Positions 20,347-53,887 of a DNA stretch of 64,000 nt are shown here, piece by piece (the first letter of the stretch is position 1; each line of letters begins with the position of its first letter). Source of the stretch: a virus. The notes under the pieces were generated by a model that was not told the origin of the DNA, searched no databases, and saw only the letters and a list, made by a program, of their open reading frames with translations. Location of the stretch: positions 1 through 64,000 of the IMG/VR virus record IMGVR_UViG_3300042731_009409; one strand, 5' to 3'. Both the position numbers and the translations under genes were made by a program.

Positions 20347-21543
20347 TTAGCTTATATCCCTTTCAACCTCATGGATTATTTTTATACCAGATATACCAAC
20401 GTCTTGCAAATAATCATCATCAGCATGTGAGGTATTTCTTTCTATTTTTATAAACAAAGTATCACCATTGGTCGAATCCGCTTGTGTAATAGTTGCTGAA
20501 GACAATACAAATTTAATATATTGACTATCAATCCCAGCACCTTCCAGATCGCTTGTTGACACCGTATCATTACTGTCATGTGTTTTGTTTAGATTATCTC
20601 CATTTTTATTTAAGCAACAACTTACATCAAAAGTTATTCCCTCACCTGAAACTGGCGCACTTGTTTCTGTGATATAACCATGTATCTCAACGTCAATATC
20701 ATCTCCTATAAAGCCATGTGGTATTTCGTATTCAAACAACATATTTTCATCGGTAGAAGAGTCAAATTTTCTAACTTTTACACTTCCATTGCCAGATGTC
20801 AAAGTTTCAATTGTTGCTGGTGGCGAACTGCCATCGTGTCCCAATTCGACAGGTATAAATTTTGAAATAGTTCTGTTGTTTACATTCCAAGGTGTTTTAT
20901 TTATTGGGCCTAACAATCTTATTATAGTTCCAACACCTAAGCCATCTGCCTGATCAGCTTTGATTGTTATTTTAGAAAGAGGATTAGTATCGGCTGTTTT
21001 ATATTTTACGCCTCTTTTATTTAAGCCCAACATGCTATAACTAATGCAAGACGTATTTTTACATTCATATCTATAATTGTTTCCAACCAACCTCAACTCT
21101 ACAAAAGCATAGCCTTCCATGTCTGCCGGAACCCTAAAAATTTGCGCATCGTTGGAATGTCCAGCACCGGTATTAGTATTATATAAATAATAATATGCAT
21201 TAGAATAATTAGAATCAGTTTCATCATCTTGGACATACAGAGAAACAAAAGTTTCTGACGTACTTCCGTTTACAACGAATATCTCTAAATCATATTCATA
21301 TCCGCCTAAAGACCCGGAAGGAATTTCTACTGATTGAGTGTCAGATGTTAATTCAGTCTCCCAAATGACTCTTGACGATATTGGTGTATTGTTTATCACG
21401 GATTCTTCATAATCTCCGTTGGCAGTTGATTTAGATTGATAACGCCTGTTCGTTGCCATATCTATATATGCGTGGCCTTCATACTTTGGAGTTATGGTTG
21501 AAGGTTCGCCGCTTCCAGTATAATTTATATTTTTAGTATGCAT
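20347..21543 (-). CDS. Fibre paralogue 3 of 3
   Basis: A 398-residue all-beta protein. The N-terminal collar motif GSGEPSTITPKYEGHAYID is shared with the two genes upstream in transcription, as is the C-terminal sandwich ending HADDDYLQDVGISGIKI. The segment SSPPATIETLTSGNGSVKV is nearly identical to that of the 22736-23941 paralogue, at DNA level as well. It probably forms a tail fibre or tip exchanged or co-assembled with its paralogues. Confidence 0.75.
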   Translation of the reverse strand: MHTKNINYTGSGEPSTITPKYEGHAYIDMATNRRYQSKSTANGDYEESVINNTPISSRVIWETELTSDTQSVEIPSGSLGGYEYDLEIFVVNGSTSETFVSLYVQDDETDSNYSNAYYYLYNTNTGAGHSNDAQIFRVPADMEGYAFVELRLVGNNYRYECKNTSCISYSMLGLNKRGVKYKTADTNPLSKITIKADQADGLGVGTIIRLLGPINKTPWNVNNRTISKFIPVELGHDGSSPPATIETLTSGNGSVKVRKFDSSTDENMLFEYEIPHGFIGDDIDVEIHGYITETSAPVSGEGITFDVSCCLNKNGDNLNKTHDSNDTVSTSDLEGAGIDSQYIKFVLSSATITQADSTNGDTLFIKIERNTSHADDDYLQDVGISGIKIIHEVERDIS

Positions 21544-22735
21544 TTTTTGCCCTATATTGTATTACCATTCTTGCGAAACCTATATCTTGACCATAATCAT
21601 CGTCTGTATGACCAACATACCTAGATATTTTAAATATCAAAGAGTCACCAGGTTCTAAATCACCTGGTTCTATTAAAACCTTATCAGTTCTAAAAATGTC
21701 GTATTGAGAATCAACATCTATATAATTTAAATTTGCAATCGAAGAAACAATGTTGCTACCGTAAGTTTCATTTAAATTTCCACCATCTTTATCAATTTTG
21801 TAAAATGCAAATCTATAGGCAATTCCTTGTCCAGATGTCGGCACTGTCGATTCTGTTATAACAGAAGAAAAATCTACAAATAAATAATTATAACCTGCAT
21901 AATCTTCTGGAATAGTCCATTTTTTTATCAAATATTCTTCAGTAGATGAATCGAATTTTCTTATTTGCAAAGCACCATTGCCATTTGTGACAGTTGTCAA
22001 TGCAGATGGGGCAGGGCTCCCGTCTGAAAACTCTTTTACCAAAAGAGTTTTCTTTTTATATTGCTCGGTCGCTAATGATGTGCTCCAAGTTGGTCTATAT
22101 AAAACTAATTTTGTATTTATAGCAAAGTTAGTTAAATTATGTGAATCAAATCTTATTTCTTTTAACGGTTCTGCCGTTTGGTTTGTGTACCTAATAGCAT
22201 ACCATATATTATTAACAGTAGAATCACTGTTGTCGTCGGGCGTAAATCTTGAAAAAATCCAATACCATCCATTAACGTGTCTTATTTTAATATATGCTTT
22301 AGTTTGATAGCCACTCTTGCTTCTAATTATGTTTGGGACGTCTGAAGTATTATTGTTTAATGCTGTACCGTCAGATGTGACAAATTTCAATTTGTAGTTA
22401 GAATCAGTATAGTCTCCATTTATATTCATTTTACAAAAACCATTAGAACTAGAATTATAAACAATCAATTCCATATCATAAGAATATCTATATAAATATT
22501 TATCAGGAACGTATATATACTGCGCCGTTGACGACAAAGTGTTAGAATATATTTCAGTTGTTGTGTTCGAACTAGGTGTTGAAAGTTTTTTAACCTTATA
22601 GAAATCTCCAATTGTTGTTGACAAAGATATATATTCTATGTTATTTGTCGTATCATAATATATTTGACCAATATATTCTGGCGTAACGGTGGTTGGTGCT
22701 CCAGAACCAGACAAATTTGATTTTGATAAATGCAT
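21533..22735 (-). CDS. Fibre paralogue 2 of 3
   Basis: A 400-residue paralogue with GSGAPTTVTPEYIGQIYYD at the N-terminus, SSALTTVTNG-type mid block, and HTDDDYGQDIGFARM at the C-terminus. It is more diverged from its neighbours than they are from each other. The stop overlaps the next gene start by 11 bases. Probable tail fibre component. Confidence 0.75.
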   Translation of the reverse strand: MHLSKSNLSGSGAPTTVTPEYIGQIYYDTTNNIEYISLSTTIGDFYKVKKLSTPSSNTTTEIYSNTLSSTAQYIYVPDKYLYRYSYDMELIVYNSSSNGFCKMNINGDYTDSNYKLKFVTSDGTALNNNTSDVPNIIRSKSGYQTKAYIKIRHVNGWYWIFSRFTPDDNSDSTVNNIWYAIRYTNQTAEPLKEIRFDSHNLTNFAINTKLVLYRPTWSTSLATEQYKKKTLLVKEFSDGSPAPSALTTVTNGNGALQIRKFDSSTEEYLIKKWTIPEDYAGYNYLFVDFSSVITESTVPTSGQGIAYRFAFYKIDKDGGNLNETYGSNIVSSIANLNYIDVDSQYDIFRTDKVLIEPGDLEPGDSLIFKISRYVGHTDDDYGQDIGFARMVIQYRAKNAY

Positions 22736-23941
22736 TTATTCCTCGTCATATTTTATTAACAATTTCGTTATACCAACATCTTGCAAATAATCATCATCGG
22801 CATGTGTTGTGTTTCTTTTTAATGACAAAACAACATCATCACTCGCGGAAATATTTGTTATAGTCATCTCAGAATAATCGGTAACAAAAAAATCATACTG
22901 AGAATCACAGCCATAACCATTTAAATCACTTATGTTACATAACACCGGCGTATTATATGTTCCGTTTAGTTCGTCAGCGTTAGAGATTTTGTAAGCTTTT
23001 AATTCAAAAGATACTCCTTCGTTACTTATGGGTGTTGTTGATTCAGAAATTATTCCTTCTATCGCAACGGATATTTTGTTGCCATAGAAGTTGTTTGGTA
23101 CCGACCATATTAATTTAACATCTTCATCTGTAGAAGGGTCAAATTTTCTAACTTTTACACTTCCGTTTCCAGACGTTAAGGTTTCGATTGTTGCTGGTGG
23201 CGAACTGCCATCGATTGCTTCTGATATTAAAATCTCATCACTTCTTCTGTTTATATCGACGTTATAATGATAATTATACGGATCGCTTAATCTTATGCGC
23301 GTTCCAATATCGAATGCTGTCATGCCAGAAGATGTTGTTGACGTATAAAATTTTAACTTTCTAATAGATTCGGTCAAATTTTTATTTAATACAGCACAAC
23401 CATGTCTAATCCGAACATAACCAGAACCAGAAGTGTAATATGTAACAGTTGATAACCAATATTTGCCGTTTACAAATCTTATTTTTGAAAAAAATTTTGC
23501 TATATTACTACTATCAGCATGTCCCAATGTAAACCAATTATAAGAGCCTTCTGTAATATCACTTTCGTTAAAATTTATATGTGTAGAGCGATAATCATCA
23601 GTATCTGTTTCGTCATTTATCAAAACCGCTATGTACATTAAGTCTAAAGCAACTGCGTTACGAAAATCTATCTCAATATCCAAATTATATAAACCTAGAA
23701 CAGATTCTGGAACATATATTTCTGACTCTTGTGAATTAAATGTATGTTCCCAAATTACGTTCGATACACCGTTCAATGAAGCAAAAGGAACAAATCTTTT
23801 CATGGACTCGTTGCTATCACCTCTACCAACTACATATGGAGTATTTAATCTAGTATCTACATATATTTGCCCAGAATATTCTGGCGTTATTGTATTGGCT
23901 GATACAATACCATCCAAACTTGCTTTTTTATAATGTGCCAT
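22736..23941 (-). CDS. Fibre paralogue 1 of 3
   Basis: A 401-residue paralogue with ANTITPEYSGQIYVD near the N-terminus, the SSPPATIETLTSGNGSVKV block, and HADDDYLQDVGITKLL at the end. First of three tandem copies in transcription order. A related C-terminal sandwich also occurs in the 47229-48416 protein of the head-side fibre block. Confidence 0.75.
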   Translation of the reverse strand: MAHYKKASLDGIVSANTITPEYSGQIYVDTRLNTPYVVGRGDSNESMKRFVPFASLNGVSNVIWEHTFNSQESEIYVPESVLGLYNLDIEIDFRNAVALDLMYIAVLINDETDTDDYRSTHINFNESDITEGSYNWFTLGHADSSNIAKFFSKIRFVNGKYWLSTVTYYTSGSGYVRIRHGCAVLNKNLTESIRKLKFYTSTTSSGMTAFDIGTRIRLSDPYNYHYNVDINRRSDEILISEAIDGSSPPATIETLTSGNGSVKVRKFDPSTDEDVKLIWSVPNNFYGNKISVAIEGIISESTTPISNEGVSFELKAYKISNADELNGTYNTPVLCNISDLNGYGCDSQYDFFVTDYSEMTITNISASDDVVLSLKRNTTHADDDYLQDVGITKLLIKYDEE

Positions 23942-41324: not shown

Positions 41325-42428
41325 TTACCTGTAACTTGGATTTGCTTGAGTTGCACAGCCGATTGGCGCTTTATACAATTTCAAAATATTTAATATTTCA
41401 GGATCATTCGTTATTCCTCTGAGCCCCTGTGCAATTGGTTTTGTAGTTCCACCAGGCGCAGAATATTTTATTTTATGACCATCCGTCCATTCTTCAAGAA
41501 TATTTCCCAATATTGGTGGGATTGTTCCAGTGGAAAAACCGCTTGTCGAATACAAAGGTGTGGTCAATTTTTCAATAACCAATTTTGTTAAAGCTCTTTG
41601 TATTAATTTTGGCGGACTATTGTCATCTTCTACATAGCCAAAAACACCACTTATTACCTGATTTTGTCTGCCTTTCCTAAATATCAGGCTTCTACCGGTT
41701 ATTGGGGCAGTAAAAATATCAGTATATTCCAGAGAATTTACAAGCTTTATCCTTGGATTCCAACGATCTGAAAAGTCATTTAATCTATTATACACTTTAT
41801 ATAATGACGTATCTAATTCTGTCGTACTATCGTTTATTTTTATATATGATATGCTTATAATCGGAACGCCAAAATGTAAAGTGTCACTGTCGGTCCCATC
41901 AACACTCAAAATTAAAGATCTTGGGTTAAACCATTGTCTACAAGCTCTATCAATAAACGCTTGCCACATTTCTATCGCTGCCAAAACGGTTTCATCGTCA
42001 TAATCTGCTTCGAGCAAACCTTGATCTCTTATGTCCTGTATAGATATATATGTATCGACAGATGAGCCAGCGCTTTGAACCAATACCTCAAAGTCTTCTT
42101 GCCCCGACTGATAAGGCGCAGCAGCAGTTATCTTCCATCTCCACTCGATCCTATGTGTACCTATGGGTTCAGCAATAGACGGCGTCCAACCCTTACTCTC
42201 GGTGTTATCATAAGCATAATATGAACCTACAGCAAAATGGCCTGGCAAACTACTTACATCTTCATATTCTCCTTCTGTTGTCGGGAATACTTGGGTTCCC
42301 GGTAAACCTCCGGTTATATCAATTATCCTGTATCCAACTTCATATGCATCTGTTTTGACCCCATTTACCAGGATAAACCAGTTTAATACAGATGTAGTAT
42401 TCGATTCACCTCTTGCTAAAGATGCCAT
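41325..42428 (-). CDS. Head-tail connector protein with N-terminal Ig-like domain
   Basis: A 367-residue protein. Residues 1-125 form a beta domain (WFILVNGVKTDAYEVGYRI). Residues 130-330 match gp6-type head-tail adaptors: YISIQDIRDQGLLEADYDDE, a helix around AIEMWQAFIDRACRQWF, and ISISYIKINDS. The adaptor forms a ring below the portal. Fusion to a large N-terminal beta domain is unusual for the small (100-200 residue) connector family. Confidence 0.7.
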   Translation of the reverse strand: MASLARGESNTTSVLNWFILVNGVKTDAYEVGYRIIDITGGLPGTQVFPTTEGEYEDVSSLPGHFAVGSYYAYDNTESKGWTPSIAEPIGTHRIEWRWKITAAAPYQSGQEDFEVLVQSAGSSVDTYISIQDIRDQGLLEADYDDETVLAAIEMWQAFIDRACRQWFNPRSLILSVDGTDSDTLHFGVPIISISYIKINDSTTELDTSLYKVYNRLNDFSDRWNPRIKLVNSLEYTDIFTAPITGRSLIFRKGRQNQVISGVFGYVEDDNSPPKLIQRALTKLVIEKLTTPLYSTSGFSTGTIPPILGNILEEWTDGHKIKYSAPGGTTKPIAQGLRGITNDPEILNILKLYKAPIGCATQANPSYR

Positions 42429-42743: not shown

Positions 42744-43046
42744 CTAAGGCAAAATACCGTCCGGATCGAACGGTGTGCCTATTACGTTGTTCAGACCAAG
42801 ATGTTCTGTATCCAAATCTTGATAAAACGCTTGCAACACATCATCTGCAATTGGCGCAGTTACTAGATCGATTGATTGATCGCTAGTTTCTGTCCAACCA
42901 AAATTTTCGTCGTCCGGTTCGTAAACTTGTCCATTTACAACTATTTTAATTGTACCGGATACAAACTTCGACGGCGTATTAAATGATTTATTTACACCGT
43001 CGATAGTTCCGCTAAGTTTTTCCAAAACAGAATTGTAAAGAGACAT
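42744..43046 (-). CDS. Small beta-rich structural protein
   Basis: A 100-residue protein (LSGTIDGVNKSFNTPSKFVS, GTIKIVVNGQVYEP) with the 'function-like' beta pattern often seen in phage structural or fibre attachment domains. It overlaps the membrane protein gene at its start by one base. Role inferred from context only. Confidence 0.65.
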   Translation of the reverse strand: MSLYNSVLEKLSGTIDGVNKSFNTPSKFVSGTIKIVVNGQVYEPDDENFGWTETSDQSIDLVTAPIADDVLQAFYQDLDTEHLGLNNVIGTPFDPDGILP

Positions 43047-43504
43047 TATTCCTCTTCTATCTTTTTCTTTATCTCGTCAACCTTAGTCAATAGAATTCTT
43101 ATAGTTGCATTTCTTTCTTCTTGTTTTTCGCTATTTATTCTTATTTTTTGTACATCTTTTTCTAAAGATATTAATTGTTGTTTTTGTTCACCTATTGTGT
43201 TTTTTGAATATTCTGTATCAGCTTTTAAAGTTGTAAAAGATATTATAGCAGCCACTATAGCGAATAACAATGTAGTTACAGCACCTATCAAGAATTTACG
43301 AAAATTCTTCCAAGAATTTATCTCAGAAATCAAATTTGGTAATTTCTTCAACGTTTCCTCTGTGTTTTTTATTCTTTCTTCGTTTACACATTTGTGTATT
43401 CTTATTCTGTCTATTGTGGACCAAACAGAATCTAGATTTTTTTCTATTGGTTCTATTTTAGAATCAAACAACCATTTTATATTTTCGTCAATTTTGTTGG
43501 TCAT
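43046..43504 (-). CDS. Membrane-anchored coiled-coil protein
   Basis: A 152-residue protein with helical N-terminal part (1-65), a single membrane segment at about 70-92 (FLIGAVTTLLFAIVAAIISF) and a C-terminal coiled coil (EQKQQLISLEKDVQKIRINS). XhlA-like lysis proteins have similar elements but are smaller. It is an unexpected membrane protein among neck genes; it could be a lysis or superinfection protein inserted in the operon. Confidence 0.6.
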   Translation of the reverse strand: MTNKIDENIKWLFDSKIEPIEKNLDSVWSTIDRIRIHKCVNEERIKNTEETLKKLPNLISEINSWKNFRKFLIGAVTTLLFAIVAAIISFTTLKADTEYSKNTIGEQKQQLISLEKDVQKIRINSEKQEERNATIRILLTKVDEIKKKIEEE

Positions 43505-43507
43505 TTT

Positions 43508-44056
43508 CTACTCATAATCCGGGTCTTCATAAACAGACGTAAAATATCTAGCTCTTGCCAATTCAGCATTTTCGTTCGGGTTTGACAACTTTTTATAAGG
43601 TGTGTGATTTTCAAGATGTACAGTCATTCTGTTTATTTTTGGTATGCCAAAAATATCTAAACCAGCAGACGACCAAATAATTGGTTGCGGTGGAGCAAAA
43701 TCTAAATCCAATTGTAAAATTGAACCAGTTATTACACCACCAGTATTTAATTCTGTTTTTGTCTTTTTATATGATCTTGTAATCCAGTCCTTCAAATTGT
43801 GATAATAAACTGTTTTTAATGGCTGTTGTATGTTGTTTGACCAAAATTTTACAATAATGGCATTGCCCGTTTTGGGAGTATTTATATCTTCCGAAAAATC
43901 AATCTGAGCAGATTGTATTTCTATTGCTTCACCAGCGTTCGGTTTTAGTTCCCACGTGCTATCTTCTAAAGTTGTCCATGTTTCTGGGTCATCAAAATAA
44001 TGTGTCCCGATTGTGTCAGAGCGTTTAGTTATGTCAGGTAAACCGTTGTATTGCAT
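43508..44056 (-). CDS. Hypothetical structural protein
   Basis: A 182-residue protein with beta-rich character (KTGNAIIVKFWSNNIQQPLK, SILQLDLDFAPPQP). It lies between the fibre block and connector genes and shares one base with the next gene upstream. Not recognised; virion role inferred from position. Confidence 0.6.
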   Translation of the reverse strand: MQYNGLPDITKRSDTIGTHYFDDPETWTTLEDSTWELKPNAGEAIEIQSAQIDFSEDINTPKTGNAIIVKFWSNNIQQPLKTVYYHNLKDWITRSYKKTKTELNTGGVITGSILQLDLDFAPPQPIIWSSAGLDIFGIPKINRMTVHLENHTPYKKLSNPNENAELARARYFTSVYEDPDYE

Positions 44057-44331
44057 CAGAAAATTGCCTCCCAGTCGAAAGATACTGTTCTTATTCCTCT
44101 TTTATTTTTCCCCCCGTTTGCAGACACAGAAAATGTGAAAAATCTGTTAGTTATATTTATAACCCTTAAATTGCCAGAACCATCAAACCTTACATTTGAA
44201 AATTTTATTTTTTTTGGTATATCAGCAGAAATAAATGGAAATTGCACGTTATTTGTTAAATCAACCCAACCCCTGTTCGGGTAAATTGTCATCGAAAAAA
44301 TTTCAGAACCAGATAGTGAATGATTTTTCAA
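44056..44331 (-). CDS. Hypothetical structural protein
   Basis: A 91-residue beta-rich protein (SMTIYPNRGWVDLTNNVQF, SNVRFDGSGNLRVINITN). It directly follows the glycosidase-like fibre gene. The sequence resembles a small attachment or cap domain; no family is recognised. Confidence 0.6.
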   Translation of the reverse strand: MKNHSLSGSEIFSMTIYPNRGWVDLTNNVQFPFISADIPKKIKFSNVRFDGSGNLRVINITNRFFTFSVSANGGKNKRGIRTVSFDWEAIF

Positions 44332-44339
44332 TTTTGCTC

Positions 44340-46526
44340 CTAAGTTGTTTCCGGCCCAAGAATCATCGCTTTAACAAGGCCTGAACCGGTTCTGTTTGCC
44401 ACTGCTTGAGCAAACACACCTACACTACCATTTGTGTTTGGCGCGGCCGCTTTAGCAGTCGTGCTTGTATATAGACCGTCTCCTATTGATGTAGTTGCTG
44501 TAACATTTACATCCCAAACTCCTTTAGTTGCAACCGTGATATATTCGGTGTCATCACCTCCAATCGCTATAACGCCTATAACATTTATATCATTTGCGGT
44601 TGTTGTATCATCACAACTTTCGGCTGTGCTTTGATGCAAAATAACAACATCACCAGCAACTAATGTTCCACCGCTATTATTTACCAATTTTATAGTTTGC
44701 TCGGACAGCCAAATATTGCCGTCATACCAACATGGCAAATTCCAATCCGTGTTAAAACAGGTATCGCCTATTTTAGGATTTAAAACTGAAATCATTTCGG
44801 CTGTTGATTTTGGTCCATATGTATAAGGCAGAAGTCCTTTATGGTAAACTATTTCAGATTTTTGATTATTTGAGTCGGAAAAATCAAGTTTTAGTTCTCC
44901 ATGTTCTACAAATCTCGTATAAAGATCTGTATCTACTAAATCAACCTGTATAGAAGGGCTATTTGTGTAAATTTTGCCTAGCGGAGTCATATCACTTCTG
45001 GGCCAATATTTTACAGCGGCAGAACTTGCTCCATAATATTGATCGGAAGTTCCCCACGCTTCTAAACACCACATCAAAGCGGAAAGTTCGCCAAAATTAT
45101 ATAGATCTTGTCCAATTGAATTGCTATTACTTATAACACCAACAGCAGCAAGATTAATTCCCATTGAATAGCGGTAACTATTCGCTGCAACACCCCTGTT
45201 TGCCCAATCTGTTTTTGATTCATATCCATCTGGCGTTGATGCAGTATAAGCAAGATCGTTTATTGGGAATGATTCCAACAAATACCAATCGTTATAAGTC
45301 AAATTTGATGGATCGGAATCGGGATTCCAAGTTGCGTCATAATCACTTGATAAAATATCGTCTATATCCCAAGCATTTACAAAACAAATATTGGCCGAAC
45401 TAAGACCATGTACATGATCAACTTTTGCATTAAATGCGTCTCTACCATTTGTTGCAGCAGAACCATAATCCCAGCCAGCTTCATCCATGAAAATACCGCT
45501 GGTTCCAAGAGTATTCCAATCATCTGCTTTATCATCAAAATTTGCATCTGTTTGATTTACTGAAACATAACCAAAAATTTTTACGCTTGGTTTTACAGTT
45601 TTTATTCTTTGTATAATTCTCCAGGTATTCGCTATATCTCCATGATCACCTACCAAATATTCGTCATCAGTATCCCAGTCATTATCCGTTCCACCAGACA
45701 AAGTTGCTGTTATTGTTGTAGAAGTATTTGCGGTAATAGTTCCACTACTGCCATCAGTAGTATTTATAATCACCTTGCCAACAAATTCGTTTGTCGTCCA
45801 ACTTTTTGAACTATCTGTCAAAACGGATTGCCCATCTGAGCCAGTATGAGATCCTTGCGTTAATAATTCCTGCAAAGAATTCCCAAGAACGATCAAATCA
45901 TATTTGCACATATCGAGTGCAACTTTCTTCCAATCCCAACCATTTTGCGCTGAATTAAAACTTCCTGGCCACCCATAATAAATAAGTAATTTTTTAGGTC
46001 CTGTATACAATGATTGGTCAATTTGCAATTGATGCCAGCCAGTATTGCCATTATGCAAACCTTCCAAAATTGAAACACGATCATTAATGCAAACAAAAGT
46101 CGAAACATAAAGAGGATTTGCAGATGGATTAAGAATTTCACGTTCATTATGCAGCGCAAGCATAAAAGGCGGCGGACCTTTTTTGCCTGTTACAGAATCT
46201 GTCCAAATAGGTGAACCCTCCAACAATGTTTGAATTTCTGTACTTATTGCTGTTGGATTTAATACAGCAACATTTCTTACAATATCATCCTCAAGTTGAT
46301 CTTGTTCTTGTTGAGCAATAATTGCGTCAACAGCATCTTTTTCGGCTTGAGACATTTCTACTACAGTGTCTGAAACAACTTTCCAATACTTTTGGGCAAC
46401 ACCACTAACGCCTGATAAATTAGGATTTATCAGCCAGGTGCCCGATGGATATTCAGGCGTATTCACTGTTGTTAAGTATTCATATATACCGTTTGCATCT
46501 GCCGTTCTTTTTATTACATCTGCCAT
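44340..46526 (-). CDS. Fibre/decoration protein with TIM-barrel glycosidase-like domain
   Basis: A 728-residue protein from ATG 46526 behind AGGAGGGG. Residues 170-530 follow the strand-helix rhythm of spherulin-4/GH114-like TIM barrels: KLLIYYGWPGSFN, KYDLIVLGNSLQ, VKIFGYVSVNQTD, GTSGIFMDEAGWDYG (acidic residues D and E at the barrel end) and NICFVNAWDIDD. Such enzymes cut galactosaminogalactan-type or related glycans. The C-terminal 110 residues (GTLVAGDVVILHQSTAES to FAQAVANRTGSGLVKAMI) resemble a DUF2190-like capsid-decoration barrel, also seen in the 48832-50526 protein. A polysaccharide depolymerase displayed on the virion is a reasonable inference. Confidence 0.65.
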   Translation of the reverse strand: MADVIKRTADANGIYEYLTTVNTPEYPSGTWLINPNLSGVSGVAQKYWKVVSDTVVEMSQAEKDAVDAIIAQQEQDQLEDDIVRNVAVLNPTAISTEIQTLLEGSPIWTDSVTGKKGPPPFMLALHNEREILNPSANPLYVSTFVCINDRVSILEGLHNGNTGWHQLQIDQSLYTGPKKLLIYYGWPGSFNSAQNGWDWKKVALDMCKYDLIVLGNSLQELLTQGSHTGSDGQSVLTDSSKSWTTNEFVGKVIINTTDGSSGTITANTSTTITATLSGGTDNDWDTDDEYLVGDHGDIANTWRIIQRIKTVKPSVKIFGYVSVNQTDANFDDKADDWNTLGTSGIFMDEAGWDYGSAATNGRDAFNAKVDHVHGLSSANICFVNAWDIDDILSSDYDATWNPDSDPSNLTYNDWYLLESFPINDLAYTASTPDGYESKTDWANRGVAANSYRYSMGINLAAVGVISNSNSIGQDLYNFGELSALMWCLEAWGTSDQYYGASSAAVKYWPRSDMTPLGKIYTNSPSIQVDLVDTDLYTRFVEHGELKLDFSDSNNQKSEIVYHKGLLPYTYGPKSTAEMISVLNPKIGDTCFNTDWNLPCWYDGNIWLSEQTIKLVNNSGGTLVAGDVVILHQSTAESCDDTTTANDINVIGVIAIGGDDTEYITVATKGVWDVNVTATTSIGDGLYTSTTAKAAAPNTNGSVGVFAQAVANRTGSGLVKAMILGPETT

Positions 46527-46527
46527 A

Positions 46528-47229
46528 TTATCCCCTCCTGCGTGGCGCAAGAACGTTGAAAGTCCAATATGAACTTGCATATATTGAACTTCCTGTTACT
46601 AAATAATTTGTTCTATCTTTCATATTAGCGTCAGTTCCGGTAGTAGTTTGTGGCACTCCTTCATTCAATGGTGCATCAAAAAGTTTGTCATAAACCCTAT
46701 CGTGTCCTCTGGCATAATAGATTTGGCCAATTTCAGAATCGCTTAATTCTCGATTAAAAATTTGTAATCCAGAAAGCCTGCCAAAAAAACCTCTTGAATA
46801 ACCAGACCTATTGCCAGCAATTAAATTTGTTCCACTGTCCGAAACGTTCGAACCAGAACCGGCCACGGACGTTTGAAGTGATACCGACTCTCCATTGATA
46901 TATAATTTGCCAAATGTAGAAGTATATACAGCCGCAACATGCTGCCATTGATTTAACGTAATAGAATAATCTACAGCCCTATAATTTGCATTTCCTGTTT
47001 CACGGTATCTATAAAAAGCCAACGTCTCATTACTTGCATTATCATCCACAAAAAACATCCAACCTGTGGATACACCTTCTTTGCACAATATTCTTCCATA
47101 AGAAGATTGACCCCAACCTAATGGATAAATCCAAGCACTAACGGCAAGGGGATCTAAATCTTCAAGATGGGATGGAGCACCAAAATCTATTCCAGAAGTA
47201 GAAAAAGAGCTATCTAAACGAACACCCAT
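46528..47229 (-). CDS. LamG/concanavalin-like virion protein
   Basis: A 233-residue protein with a jelly-roll lectin signature: AVSAWIYPLGWG, LNQWQHVAAVYTS, GKLYINGE and FGRLSGLQIFNRELSDSEI. These are the standard blocks of LamG-like domains that bind carbohydrate. It is encoded between two fibre-type proteins and probably presents a sugar-binding head. Confidence 0.8.
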   Translation of the reverse strand: MGVRLDSSFSTSGIDFGAPSHLEDLDPLAVSAWIYPLGWGQSSYGRILCKEGVSTGWMFFVDDNASNETLAFYRYRETGNANYRAVDYSITLNQWQHVAAVYTSTFGKLYINGESVSLQTSVAGSGSNVSDSGTNLIAGNRSGYSRGFFGRLSGLQIFNRELSDSEIGQIYYARGHDRVYDKLFDAPLNEGVPQTTTGTDANMKDRTNYLVTGSSIYASSYWTFNVLAPRRRG

Positions 47230-48416
47230 TAGCTAAACCTTATTCCTAACATCAATAGCGTCCAATCGCCGCTCAATTCTGTTCCAGCTTGTGGGTTTAC
47301 ACGTGTCATTTCGAACTGCACTATTTCACCAGCACTAACAGACAAAGAAGAAATAGCAATTGTTTCTGAATCGTATTGCCATTGTTCGTTATCTGGAATG
47401 TCAATGTCATCCATTGTAAAACCAGCTGTCCAACTGTCAACCGTGTTTGGCAAACCCCTATTATAAAGTTTTAATCCGACCGTTCTAGATCCGCCTGGAG
47501 CAGTTTCAGCCCTGGATACAATATCTATAATTATATTTGTAATTCCTGACGGCAATCTGACAGTAAAGCCAATGCCCTCCTCGGTAGTATCGTCAAACCG
47601 CCTAACATAAAAAGCCGAGTTGTTAGAATCTACACCACCACCAGCGTGCACATTAACTGTCCAATCCGAATTAATAGGGAACTCTAATTGATCAGCAAAG
47701 ATTTGAAATTCTGGATAAGACGAACCGCCACCAGGAGGTTCTGACCAACTTCCATCAGCCCTTAAATAGTTAGTTGTACCACCACCTAATTTAGGCAATA
47801 AACCATGTGCTGATGTAGTAGCGTTTAAATCTGTGTTGTCATCAGGAGCGCTTAAATCATCTAATTTTATAGCATCTCCACCACCACTCTCATGTGAAGT
47901 ATTGTGTGAAGTAGGCGTCCTTGAATCGCTCAAACGGCTATCATTTCCTTCGCAAGCCGTATTCGCAGACGAACCATAAACTTGTTGAGAACCAGTTAAT
48001 TTACTGCTACCATCTAAACCTGCATAACCGCTAGCAGCATTTTTGTTAGCCGTCATTTCGGCTCCTGCTGCCGCTACATTAGTAGCATCTGTTACGTCAG
48101 CATTTGCCTCAATATTATCTAACTTGCTACCATCTGTCGACAAATCTCTTCCGTCTACAGTTCCAGAAGTCGCAATATTTCCGGAATCATCAACGGTAAC
48201 AGAACTGTTTTGTAAAACTTTTCCGGTCGTACCGTCGAATCTTGCTACGGCGTTATCAGTTGAACTTGCATCACCAACAACATTACCTTTTATTTCCGTT
48301 TCGGTTCCGCCATCATCTTTTATATACAAACTGCCATCGGTTTTAACATAAAGTTTTTGATAACCAGTTGCTGGTATATCATGGCTGTCAGTTTCCTTTA
48401 GTGTTATTTCTGACAT
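47229..48416 (-). CDS. Fibre protein
   Basis: A 395-residue protein. The N-terminal part (YQKLYVKTDGSLYIKDDGGT, AVARFDGTTGKVLQNSSVTV) and the middle SRLSDSRTPTSHNTSH are repeats typical of phage side fibres. The C-terminal sandwich (AFYVRRFDDTTEEGIGFTVR to LLMLGIRF) resembles the C-terminal domain of the three fibre paralogues at 20.3-23.9 kb. One-base overlap with the lectin gene. Confidence 0.75.
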   Translation of the reverse strand: MSEITLKETDSHDIPATGYQKLYVKTDGSLYIKDDGGTETEIKGNVVGDASSTDNAVARFDGTTGKVLQNSSVTVDDSGNIATSGTVDGRDLSTDGSKLDNIEANADVTDATNVAAAGAEMTANKNAASGYAGLDGSSKLTGSQQVYGSSANTACEGNDSRLSDSRTPTSHNTSHESGGGDAIKLDDLSAPDDNTDLNATTSAHGLLPKLGGGTTNYLRADGSWSEPPGGGSSYPEFQIFADQLEFPINSDWTVNVHAGGGVDSNNSAFYVRRFDDTTEEGIGFTVRLPSGITNIIIDIVSRAETAPGGSRTVGLKLYNRGLPNTVDSWTAGFTMDDIDIPDNEQWQYDSETIAISSLSVSAGEIVQFEMTRVNPQAGTELSGDWTLLMLGIRFS

Positions 48417-48418
48417 TA

Positions 48419-48826
48419 TTACTCCAATACAACAAGCTCACCATCTAATATTAAATTACCTTCGATTGTAATATTGTGATGTACAATATATTGATAATGC
48501 TCCAAAACAGAAACTGTTGTGCCAACTGGAATAAACTTTCTAACGCCAACTGCAACGTTAGCCATTAAATCTGTCAGAGTATGACCAGGATATTGATTAC
48601 TTGCGTTATCATTATCGAACAAACAGAGATTATTACCGTTTCTATAAATGCCAACATTTTCATCTCTGTTCGATTCGTCTTGTAAAAAAATACCTGCTGT
48701 TTCTATAGCATCTTCTTGTGGCTCAATTGGCGTAGGAGCACCAAACGGATTAATATCATTATCATCACCTCCAAGAGCTGTTGATTCTACTTTTGTAACT
48801 TGTACTCTATCTACGCCAATAGCCAT
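48419..48826 (-). CDS. Small fibre-associated protein
   Basis: A 135-residue protein ending in a short beta-helical stretch (YQYIVHHNITIEGNLILDGE) like the ends of display fibres, with VFLQDESNRDENVGIYRNGN-type middle. It is translated between two fibre genes and is probably part of the same appendage. Confidence 0.65.
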   Translation of the reverse strand: MAIGVDRVQVTKVESTALGGDDNDINPFGAPTPIEPQEDAIETAGIFLQDESNRDENVGIYRNGNNLCLFDNDNASNQYPGHTLTDLMANVAVGVRKFIPVGTTVSVLEHYQYIVHHNITIEGNLILDGELVVLE

Positions 48827-48831
48827 TTTAT

Positions 48832-50526
48832 TTATGCAGCTTTCTTACCAATATATTGAGGAGCAACATCAAGATCGGTGGCATTTTTTGCCGTCCCTAC
48901 AAAAATAACGTGATTTCCTGCTGAGACATTTCCAATCCCACTTACCAAACCGCCAGAATCGCCGACATAATATCTATCACCAACTGTTGCGCCAGAAATA
49001 ACACCAACCGCAACACCAAGTTTTACAACCGTACCAGTACCAGATGCGGAGATTCCACCAGACTCTTCAACAACTCCGATTATATCAATCCTGCCAGTTA
49101 CACTTGCTTGGCATTCTCGGATTTCATCATTGGTGGTTCCCCATTCAACAGCATCGCCCTGCGCCAAAGTTTCTTCAGCAGTTAATTCATCTTCCAAACG
49201 ATCTGCACTTCCAATCGCGTGAGTGTGCAAAGTAGTTGCACCACCACCAGTCAACTCGTTTAAATTTGCAGCAGTTACATTTGTAGTCGTTGAAACTCCG
49301 TTAACAGTAAATTGCAAAGGAACGCCAAGAACATTTAGAGACGTTGCTTTAGAAATAGTAGTCCCATCAACCAAAGCTTCTAAATCGCCAGACCCATCAA
49401 ATTGCAAACCTGGATCGGATGCTGCTAAATCAATACCGATGCCACTAGAAGTAATTTCAATTCCTGCACTGGTATTTGCTTTTGCCTGCAAATCTCCACT
49501 TGAAAACTCCAAGCCCGGATCGGTCGCAAGAGAAATAGCAGCGATTCCGCTTGTGACAACAAGACCATAATCAGAATCAAAAGTGACTTTACCTTTTGTT
49601 CCACCACCACTTGCCGATGTAGCATCAGGAATCGAACTTGCACCCGTCATTGCCTGCCAGGTATCAGCATCATCATCCCAGATATAAGCTTGATCGAGAT
49701 TTTCGATTGTATGAATTTCGCCCGGAATCAAAGAACTTTGCGTTCTATTAAATCCAAAATTGGTGCTCCCGGGAACGGACGAAGGCAGAGTGGATAATGT
49801 CTTTTTGGTATATTGAGTTTCGCCGCCAAAATCTACAATTTGACAATCTGCTTGAGTTCCCCAAGTTCCGTAAATTGAAGATGCAGAACCATCATTGTCA
49901 TCCTCGATTATTACGACAACGCCATCAGTGTCAATTGCATCTAAATCTGTGGAAAAATAAGCTCCCCAAATCGCAGAACCATCACCTTGAATTGCTGCAG
50001 CAAGGTTTGTCATGCTGTCGGCTACAGTTGCACCAATCGTATACTGCACATCGCCGCCTGTGCCCGCTCCATATGTTCTTGTAGTAGTTCCATCCGTAAC
50101 AACAATCGTGTCACCAGAAGAAGGGTTTGAAGCCATCGTGAGAGCCACAGAAGCTAATACGCCTTCGGTATCATCTAGCTGATTCTCGTGCAACACAAGC
50201 TCCTTTACCTGACCACCAGTAATTACAGCAGTATCTAATTGCCCTTTGTTAACGGCATCTGTTGCAACAGTACCATCGGCTAAGCCAGTGATTTTGTTGG
50301 TACCCATTGCCAGGTTAGATGTAAGGGTCAAGCCGGCAAGACTCGCTCCACTTTGCCCATAAGACAAAGCATCGCCAGATGCACTTGCACTTGCAAGCCC
50401 AGTCACCTTGTTTGTACCCATTGTAATATTGCCAGACATTGCCAAACCGCCAAGAGCAATATCATCTGATGTTGCCATTTCCTCAGCGCCATAGTCACCT
50501 AAAAATAGAGGTTTTCGTGTTGCCAT
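48832..50526 (-). CDS. Head-fibre or decoration protein with repeats
   Basis: A 564-residue protein. The N-terminal 100 residues carry MSGNITMGTNKVTGLASASA-type repeats with periodic Gly-Leu-Ala, found in phage fibre shafts. A middle beta domain, then GLEFSSGDLQAKANTSAGIE repeats follow. The last 120 residues (LAQGDAVEWGTTNDEIRECQ to ISGATVGDRYYVGDSGGLVS) resemble a DUF2190-like decoration barrel. First large gene after the capsid group in transcription order, so attachment to the head is possible. Confidence 0.7.
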   Translation of the reverse strand: MATRKPLFLGDYGAEEMATSDDIALGGLAMSGNITMGTNKVTGLASASASGDALSYGQSGASLAGLTLTSNLAMGTNKITGLADGTVATDAVNKGQLDTAVITGGQVKELVLHENQLDDTEGVLASVALTMASNPSSGDTIVVTDGTTTRTYGAGTGGDVQYTIGATVADSMTNLAAAIQGDGSAIWGAYFSTDLDAIDTDGVVVIIEDDNDGSASSIYGTWGTQADCQIVDFGGETQYTKKTLSTLPSSVPGSTNFGFNRTQSSLIPGEIHTIENLDQAYIWDDDADTWQAMTGASSIPDATSASGGGTKGKVTFDSDYGLVVTSGIAAISLATDPGLEFSSGDLQAKANTSAGIEITSSGIGIDLAASDPGLQFDGSGDLEALVDGTTISKATSLNVLGVPLQFTVNGVSTTTNVTAANLNELTGGGATTLHTHAIGSADRLEDELTAEETLAQGDAVEWGTTNDEIRECQASVTGRIDIIGVVEESGGISASGTGTVVKLGVAVGVISGATVGDRYYVGDSGGLVSGIGNVSAGNHVIFVGTAKNATDLDVAPQYIGKKAA

Positions 50527-50552
50527 TTTTTAAATCCTTTCCTCGTTATGTA

Positions 50553-50957
50553 TCACGTACTATTTTTCTTATTTTTTTTACGTTCTACTTTTTCTTTTAT
50601 GTTGTCTTCAATAAAAGTAATGATTCCCGTATCAGAATCATATGTGACTTTTGAAAAATCTATTTTATATAAATCACCTAATTTGTTCCAAAATCGTTTA
50701 TTATCATCTCTTAATTTTGAAGATTCGTCGTTAAGATGAGCTATCTCTCTTCTCAAAGCATCTATTCTTAATTTTGCCTCGTTTTCAACCTTTTGCGCTT
50801 CAAATGTTCGAGCCCTTATAGCTTCTACAATTGCCGATTGTTTATAGTTCATCAATTCTGCTTCTAGCAAATGTTCTTTTGACAAACAGGGCTTATCAAC
50901 TCCTTCGATAGTAATAAAAGGTTCTATTTTTTCTTTCTGTTTCTTTTTCTTTGGCAT
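50553..50957 (-). CDS. Basic coiled-coil protein
   Basis: A 134-residue protein with Lys-rich ends (MPKKKKQKEK and VERKKNKKNST) and a central coiled coil (KVENEAKLRIDALRREIAHL). It may be an internal head or assembly protein; function unknown. It lies between capsid-linked and fibre genes. Confidence 0.65.
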   Translation of the reverse strand: MPKKKKQKEKIEPFITIEGVDKPCLSKEHLLEAELMNYKQSAIVEAIRARTFEAQKVENEAKLRIDALRREIAHLNDESSKLRDDNKRFWNKLGDLYKIDFSKVTYDSDTGIITFIEDNIKEKVERKKNKKNST

Positions 50958-50958
50958 T

Positions 50959-51555
50959 TTAATTTGTCCTTTTTATCATTTCCAATGATCCGGTTATCCA
51001 AAATATGTTATTAGCCATTGGTTTTCCAAGTTTTTGCGCCATAACATATCCGCCCGAATTTGCAATCGGTGGCATATATTGCAATCCAGAATCGCCTAGC
51101 CAAGCAAGTGGTTTTGTATAATCTAGACTTGTAAAAGATTCGCACGGTCCCATTATTTGCATAACGCCGACTGTAGGTGTTGATTTTGAAATCAGCACAC
51201 CTATTGCTGGCATTTTATCTATATCCCTTGGATCGGCCTTGTGCACTCTCCATTTTCCGTTTACTCTATCGCCACGTGTGCACATCCAATCCCCAACAGA
51301 ATCAGACGCAAGGCACGCAACATCTTGTTTATAGACCAACCAACGGACATCACCTATAAGACTTATCGGGTCATCAAACCAATTGCCCGGATCGTTACCG
51401 TGGATTATCCTTTTTATCTGAGACAATAAAGCTTCAAAAAATTGAGATAAATTTTCCGAAACAGTTTCAGAATTTGCAATTTCAGAAGCAGTTTTTTGAT
51501 CGTCAAAACTGTCTGGTTTTGCTATCTGGGATAATCTTTGTAAACTTTTAACCAT
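50959..51555 (-). CDS. Putative capsid-associated beta-barrel protein
   Basis: A 198-residue protein with a helical N-terminal third followed by a barrel-like half: ACLASDSVGDWMCTRGDRVN, PAIGVLISKSTPTVGVMQIM and MAQKLGKPMANNIFWITGSL. The last elements resemble barrel modules that describe capsid decoration or fibre base domains of other phages. Assignment uncertain; the context near the major capsid gene supports it. Confidence 0.6.
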   Translation of the reverse strand: MVKSLQRLSQIAKPDSFDDQKTASEIANSETVSENLSQFFEALLSQIKRIIHGNDPGNWFDDPISLIGDVRWLVYKQDVACLASDSVGDWMCTRGDRVNGKWRVHKADPRDIDKMPAIGVLISKSTPTVGVMQIMGPCESFTSLDYTKPLAWLGDSGLQYMPPIANSGGYVMAQKLGKPMANNIFWITGSLEMIKRTN

Positions 51556-52693: not shown

Positions 52694-53887
52694 TTAGACC
52701 CCTTCGCCGATATTTTTAACTTTTACTATAGCAGTAGGCTCTTCAATCTGACACGAAATTTTTGCGGTAATAGCAAATTGATCAACAGATTTGTAGATAT
52801 CTCGATCTTTTTCGATCCGTATATCTCTTCCAATACCTATGATAAAATTGCTCATATGAGTGAGTAAAAGTTGGGGAGAAGCCAAATAAGTAACTTTTAC
52901 CGTGTCGCCGTCACCAATACTTCCACCAGCATCTCTAGCAATCGTTCCGGCAGTAGCATCAAGGGTATAATCAGTGCCGGAAATATACGGAGTCGAAGGT
53001 GTATCAGACAAAGTGTTTGGAAGAACGATAACACTTGTAATGTTTTTATATTTTAGAGTTACTGCAGTTGTACCGCTAAGAACAACATGTTCGACCACTT
53101 TAGAATTAAAATCCCACAAAGGAACTTCTACAAGTTTAATACCGAAGGGTTGCATTACCATACCTCTGCCCGCTTCATCACCCGCCATAGTCGCCCTTGT
53201 GGTCAATCTTTCTGCATATGTTTGTGCAAGGTCAGGGCTCATAAACCAACGTAGATTTTTTTTATTTCTTCGAAATTTCGTAGGCATCGCTTTGATTGCG
53301 TCCGAAAAAACAGAAAATCCAATGTTGGTACCTTCAGCATCGACAACATTTCCACTGTCAGCCAAAAGCTGCCAACCATCCTGCAAGGCAAGATAACTGT
53401 CTTTTACATATTGGGTCGAAGAGCCATTGTCAATAATATCGCCCTCAAGAACAGCTGGTCCGTTTTGATCGCCAATAATATAAAGTTCCTCCATATCGTT
53501 GGCCAGTTGGGTGGCAAACATTCTAATAGCGTGATCTTCAAAGTTATCACCTTCGATATTCAACTCTTTAAAGTTATCACTAATCTCGGCAGGGACCATA
53601 ATTTCGGCAGGGGTCAAAGTGATTTTAGATGTAGTGATACCCCTTCTGATTCCCGGATCCCTTGCTTCATTCTTTGGTACAGCAACTCTCGTTCCAATCC
53701 CAACCTTGTCGATATTCATGTTTTCATTGCGAAATCTTACAATCCTTACGTTGTTTTTAAGGCTCGTTTCGTCGATAACATAATCAATAAATCGATCGCT
53801 TTGGGCATCATTAAGTTTCCCGCTTGACGCAAGAGCGTCCGCAGCAGTAATAGTTTTTCTGACAAGCTCTTCATTCGTGATAGTCAT
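52694..53887 (-). CDS. Major capsid protein (HK97 fold)
   Basis: A 397-residue protein directly after the scaffold gene. VPKNEARDPGIRRGITTSK, the long helix region FEDHAIRMFATQLANDMEEL (spine helix) and AYERLTTRATMAGDEAGRG fit HK97-fold capsid proteins. The C-terminal third (about 270-350) contains an extra beta stretch (GTDYTLDATAGTIARDAGGS) resembling a surface Ig-like or barrel insertion, before the final A-domain part DQFAITAKISCQIEEP. SD AAAGGAG precedes the start. Confidence 0.87.
   Translation of the reverse strand: MTITNEELVRKTITAADALASSGKLNDAQSDRFIDYVIDETSLKNNVRIVRFRNENMNIDKVGIGTRVAVPKNEARDPGIRRGITTSKITLTPAEIMVPAEISDNFKELNIEGDNFEDHAIRMFATQLANDMEELYIIGDQNGPAVLEGDIIDNGSSTQYVKDSYLALQDGWQLLADSGNVVDAEGTNIGFSVFSDAIKAMPTKFRRNKKNLRWFMSPDLAQTYAERLTTRATMAGDEAGRGMVMQPFGIKLVEVPLWDFNSKVVEHVVLSGTTAVTLKYKNITSVIVLPNTLSDTPSTPYISGTDYTLDATAGTIARDAGGSIGDGDTVKVTYLASPQLLLTHMSNFIIGIGRDIRIEKDRDIYKSVDQFAITAKISCQIEEPTAIVKVKNIGEGV

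Follow-up and report, generated by a model that had tools for sequence, protein, structure and literature searches.

Fibres attached to the head or neck have been seen by electron microscopy in several phages and, as they resemble tail-fibre genes, the genes encoding them are difficult to identify. Here we describe a block of genes for fibre, lectin and glycosidase-like proteins that lies among the head genes in bases 1-64000 (the window) of the 108,355-base IMG/VR virus record IMGVR_UViG_3300042731_009409. Judging from sequence comparisons and predicted structures, we think it somewhat probable that this block is a mobile receptor-binding cassette that builds a fibre attached to the head or, like that of phage A-1(L), to the neck, with a lectin and a probable glycosidase.

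The neck fibre of the Anabaena myophage A-1(L) is made of gp82, gp81 and gp80. The N-terminal part of gp82 (gp82N, residues 1-125) attaches to gp5 at the neck pentadecamer, the C-terminal part (gp82C, residues 126-241) is a bead, gp81 adds about 14 more, and a carbohydrate-binding module at the distal end belongs to gp80 (PMC10966104). In the Bacillus phage phi29, gp8.5 is a trimeric fibre on the head, and an immunoglobulin-like (Ig-like) domain of the capsid is its binding site (PMC6542822). Short N-terminal anchor segments bear variable outer domains in the crAss001 head fibres gp21 and gp29 (PMC10172136). Fibres on the head or neck, cement barrels and fibre domains of the depolymerase type are already known; what appears to be new in our data is their combination, in that a single homologous cassette is used at head as well as tail addresses and the former comes with a hydrolase-like tip.

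The structural genes of the window are on the minus strand and encode a large terminase, portal, minor head protein, protease, major capsid protein (52694..53887; phrog_1623, E = 1.4e-73), head-tail connector (41325..42428; phrog_442, E = 3.2e-8), sheath (phrog_23), tape measure, baseplate wedge and tail fibres. Given this gene set and its sheath, the phage is contractile-tailed (a myovirus). The original prediction had singled out five consecutive minus-strand genes at 44340-50526, encoding proteins of 564, 135, 395, 233 and 746 residues, as a fibre block between the capsid and connector genes. Profile matches confirm this placement, outside the tail and baseplate cluster and away from a separate set of tail-fibre genes at 16-26 kb. 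The predicted content also holds up, with matches to YadA_stalk, tail-fibre PHROGs, Laminin_G_3 and a Spherulin4-like family, the last weak in the window protein alone and present in seven of ten relatives. The block is larger than first described, spanning about 42744-51555, with its upstream start at an adaptor gene (50959-51555). Intergenic gaps do not exceed 39 bases anywhere from the capsid gene to the sheath gene, and the block is therefore embedded in a single tight operon.

The minus-strand adaptor gene encodes a 68-residue N-terminal anchor (residues 1-68; 51352..51555) fused to a beta-barrel bead (residues 69-198; 50962..51351). Records compared with the window, among them relatives of its major capsid protein from IMG/VR, are given L-numbers below. 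In L003, L011, L012, L014, L019, L029, L054, L056 and L083, the conserved anchor opens head-block proteins that otherwise differ in sequence, and in L022 the anchor protein is located after the connector. It was seen at head or neck loci only and is absent from the adaptors of tail-position cassettes. In L156 (10904-12715, minus strand), an anchor is fused to a long beta-rich protein between two connector-like segments. The adaptor bead is homologous to anchorless proteins of 126-146 residues in L070, L076, L080, L077, L163 and L082; its profile had no match in the PDB. Between the adaptor and shaft genes lies a gene for a basic coiled-coil protein of 134 residues (50553..50957, minus strand), which has a counterpart in the same position in all cassettes aligned, with weak similarity (16-33% in distant ones), and which perhaps plays a role in assembly.

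The fibre shaft is the 564-residue protein (48832..50526, minus strand), which matches YadA_stalk (31 bits against a cut-off of 28.4) and the tail-fibre family phrog_2710. The YadA-type stalk motif covers residues 78-100 (50227..50295). Identity is 71% in L070 and 53% in L076; in 50,697 phage records, a relative of the 564-residue protein had only weak Erwinia phage matches, and matches of the window protein to 8es4 and 7y22 are weak and restricted to the stalk region. At its C-terminus (48835..49203) the protein has a beta-barrel, identified by an AlphaFold2 model, Foldseek and hidden Markov models. Modelling on nine sequences gave a mean per-residue confidence (pLDDT) of 88.2 and a predicted TM-score (pTM) of 0.80. 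Foldseek aligned this model with the PDB entries 8qsy, 6qyy, 8saj, 9kzj, 8hdt, 5wk1 and 1c5e, the matched proteins being the shell proteins of HFTV1 and BB1, the base of phi29 gp8.5, and the decoration proteins of Adjutor, T1, Pam3, TW1 and lambda. The nearest solved folds are thus mostly capsid decoration proteins and the base of the phi29 head fibre, with Foldseek probabilities of 0.99-1.00 to many of them. The profile of the barrel also matches the A-1(L) neck fibre protein gp82 (8keg, chain 8keg_a; residues 119-229, E = 4.5e-7). Matches of the barrel profile to DNA-deaminase toxins were short and glycine-rich and were discarded.

Two similar barrels of the DUF2190 type had been predicted, at the C-termini of the 564-residue and 746-residue proteins. 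For the 746-residue protein, the assignment to this type is narrowly borne out: its C-terminus (residues 624-746; 44343..44711) is a borderline match to PF09956, Phage_cement_2 (24.4 bits alone, 24.1 in the genome search and 20.3 in the full-length scan, against a cut-off of 24). For the 564-residue protein, the window sequence has no Pfam match; five of the nine aligned members do match PF09956 (best 9.1e-5), and the model resembles cement proteins. No direct similarity of the two barrels to each other was detected by BLASTP or by hhalign, with shallow or deeper profiles. The adaptor adds a third barrel to the block. Only with deeper profiles, and neither by BLASTP nor with shallow profiles in hhalign, did the adaptor barrel prove related to the 564-residue one (hhalign probability 96.4, E = 1.2e-9). 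Structural agreement with decoration proteins was found for the 564-residue barrel; the full 746-residue protein (four sequences) was modelled by AlphaFold2 with a mean pLDDT of only 36, giving no usable model of its TIM barrel or its C-terminal barrel.

Folds like those of the lambda gpD, TW1 gp56, Pam3 and T1 cement proteins, together with the PF09956 matches, raise the question of whether the barrels are simply cement trimers that stabilise the capsid surface, the other domains being secondary. We regard this as very improbable. Canonical cement proteins are small and stand alone, whereas the barrels of the window are fused to a stalk or a glycosidase-like protein, at the ends of long polypeptides with a lectin encoded alongside. 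Moreover, of the 27 records searched for PF09956 only 2 contained it, so this capsid does not generally need such a protein.

The small 135-residue protein (48419..48826, minus strand) is conserved over its N-terminal 85 or so residues; L070, L076, L077, L080, L081, L082, L083 and L163 each encode an equivalent after the shaft gene. The 395-residue fibre protein (47229..48416, minus strand), which matches the tail-fibre and tail-protein families phrog_892 and phrog_1197, belongs to the variable tip region; the C-terminal part of its L002 copy recurs in an L003 head-block protein. The 233-residue lectin-like protein (46528..47229, minus strand) contains a Laminin_G_3 domain (PF13385) at 46729-47190 (83.6 bits against a cut-off of 27.6, E = 2.1e-23) and matches the pentraxin-like chain 3flp (E = 9e-4).

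The glycosidase-like protein of 746 residues (44340..46580, minus strand) probably starts at the ATG at 46526 rather than at 46580, as the former has a better ribosome site, yields a protein of 728 residues and removes a 53-base overlap. Its core (residues 112-578; 44847..46247) was delineated from alignments of relatives and resembles Spherulin-4-like TIM-barrel hydrolases. The window protein scores 18 bits against PF12138, below the cut-off of 30.2, and 7 of the 10 relatives match at E < 0.01 (best 2.7e-6); no PDB chain was matched by the glycosidase profile. All ten relatives retain Asp366 and Glu436, as expected for a TIM-barrel hydrolase, and the sequences point to a probable glycoside hydrolase activity. 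The core of the window protein is interrupted by a 70-residue insert (residues 243-312; 45645..45854) that is missing in L003 and recurs at 58-72% identity in proteins of L046-L049 that are otherwise unrelated; by this comparison, the insert is a mobile small domain. The cement-like barrel is likewise not a constant part of the protein: it is found on the window and L002 versions only, and the L070 version ends in a different C-terminus.

We defined the core of the cassette as adaptor bead, coiled coil, 564-type stalk plus bead, and 135-type small protein. This core comes directly after the capsid gene in five lineages, whose major head proteins belong to three unrelated families: phrog_1623 (the window and L002, L077, and L162-164), phrog_752 (L083) and phrog_3922 (L082). 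The original prediction of head-attached fibres or decorations rather than tail fibres gains from this recurrence, as it does from the cement-like fold, the match to the A-1(L) bead and the restriction of the anchor to head and neck loci.

The exclusion of tail fibres fares less well. Homologous cassettes, all of them anchorless, are found at tail-fibre loci in L070/L073, L076 and L080, in two arrangements overall. In L070/L073, the cassette is colinear with that of the window and follows genes for sheath, tape measure, wedge, fibre and a gpI-like protein; L076 is colinear, and in L080 the cassette comes after wedge and fibre. In L042-L044, a homologue of the glycosidase has the baseplate wedge on one side and a tail fibre on the other, and barrels of the 564 type occur in many collagen-repeat and tail-collar fibre proteins that are annotated as tail. 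As the cassette exists at both head and tail loci, position alone does not settle where it is attached. These observations would all be explained if the block encoded extra baseplate-attached tail fibres, from a copy of a tail-fibre cassette that was acquired and merely placed in the head operon, and the tail annotation of its fibre PHROGs would fit as well. We nevertheless consider this explanation rather unlikely, given that placement right after the capsid gene has occurred repeatedly and independently with three unrelated capsid families, that the anchor is confined to head and neck loci, and that the window phage has a tail-fibre set of its own.

Further points weigh against attachment to the head or neck. 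A strict rule that the anchor denotes a head address had to be rejected: L077, L162-164 and L082 carry the cassette at the head position and are anchorless, so that anchor and address are not strictly linked. The PDB matches of the 564-residue barrel have modest Foldseek E-values (best 1.5e-3) and TM-scores of 0.4-0.65. In A-1(L), the neck-fibre genes are far from the other structural genes (PMC10966104), and gene position is therefore no proof of position in the virion. The distal carbohydrate module of the A-1(L) fibre showed no binding to the host (PMC10966104), so it is not certain that the fibre serves in adsorption.

It may also be asked whether genes in the gap between capsid and connector need act on the head at all, if the gap is a hotspot that tolerates insertions. 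Among the relatives of the capsid protein, this gap is as short as about 1.1 kb (L034) and as long as about 10 kb (the window), and it varies in content; in L016, L018, L020, L022, L025, L037 and L040 it is filled by a methyltransferase/TPR/glycosyltransferase-like protein of about 600 residues (L022:13250-15070). Such a cargo hotspot seems to us very improbable as the explanation, since many relatives carry anchor- or fibre-like proteins in the gap and the cassette recurs there beside unrelated capsids. In L038 (5883-7280), another of these relatives, the same gap contains an apiosidase-like glycoside hydrolase (E = 1.3e-6) that is unrelated to the glycosidase of the window, which suggests that a hydrolase at a head address is not unique to our phage.

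Of the systems described above, A-1(L) shares with the block an adaptor made of anchor plus bead, further beads and a distal carbohydrate-binding protein on a contractile phage. The likeness of the anchors is one of domain plan (125 residues in gp82N, 68 in the window), the YadA-type stalk and the glycosidase-like protein are found on the window side, and the A-1(L) genes are distant from the structural genes while the window block is inside the head operon. The phi29 fibre gp8.5 (6qyy) has the same barrel fold (Foldseek probability 1.00, E = 2.3e-3), but there the barrels form an N-terminal base on the capsid Ig domain and carry no enzyme; the 564-residue and 746-residue barrels of the window are C-terminal. 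The short anchor bearing variable domains recalls crAss001; the crAss head fibre profile PF25641 scores only 13.8 bits in the window (E = 0.052, cut-off 30 bits), and not in the anchor. The 50,697 phage records contained nothing related to the glycosidase, anchor, adaptor or small protein, and no cultured relative of the cassette was found. A search at the DNA level gave no match, and scans of bacterial genomes revealed no relative of the adaptor or glycosidase.

Recurrence after unrelated capsid genes, an anchor seen only at head and neck loci and the likeness of the bead to a neck fibre make attachment to the head or neck the best reading; the presence of the same cassette at tail loci, and of the same barrel on many tail-annotated fibre proteins, leaves some weight with the tail. 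The block would then encode an accessory fibre carried on the virion's head side, with the neck or portal vertex or the capsomers as the most likely sites. The adaptor would dock by its 68-residue anchor and present its bead, and the 564-residue protein, whose YadA-type stalk ends in a related bead, would be chained to it. The distal part would consist of the 395-residue fibre, the lectin and the glycosidase-cement protein; it would bind and probably trim surface polysaccharide and keep the phage close to its host until the tail fibres engage. The data show the gene order, the homologies, the barrel fold, the recurrence at both kinds of locus, the exchange of domains and the conserved acidic residues, whereas this attachment, the assembly by chained beads, the enzymatic activity and the role in adsorption are inferred.

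Towards the connector, the block includes cassette proteins of 91 residues (44056..44331; homologues in the L002, L070 and L163 cassettes) and 182 residues (43508..44056; homologues in L002 and L070), and possibly a small beta-rich protein of 100 residues (42744..43046), judged by its position and by a resemblance to fibre beta-domains seen by inspection only; all three are on the minus strand. Adjoining the cassette at 43046-43504 is a possible lysis gene, whose product has a coiled coil, a membrane segment and weak Rz/XhlA-like matches. The capsid protein contains an Ig-like stretch (about residues 275-345, phrog_807), which accounts for most of its extra length relative to the related 315-residue capsid protein of L163. 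In the tail-fibre region, three successive proteins of about 400 residues (20347-23941) have common motifs and, by inspection, appear to be paralogous.

What the comparison most likely reveals is a mobile cassette with exchangeable tips and exchangeable attachment: homologous cassettes occur at both addresses, and it is a short N-terminal segment that differs. More tentatively, it is possible that phages mount the cassette on the head, neck or tail by swapping this anchor, and that our phage thus carries a polysaccharide-cutting enzyme and a lectin on its capsid or neck, apart from the tail fibres. Head and tail fibres should not be told apart from gene position or from the barrel alone. If the anchor does set the mounting site, it would provide a sequence handle for predicting fibre location and allow a direct test of head-borne polysaccharide binding and digestion.

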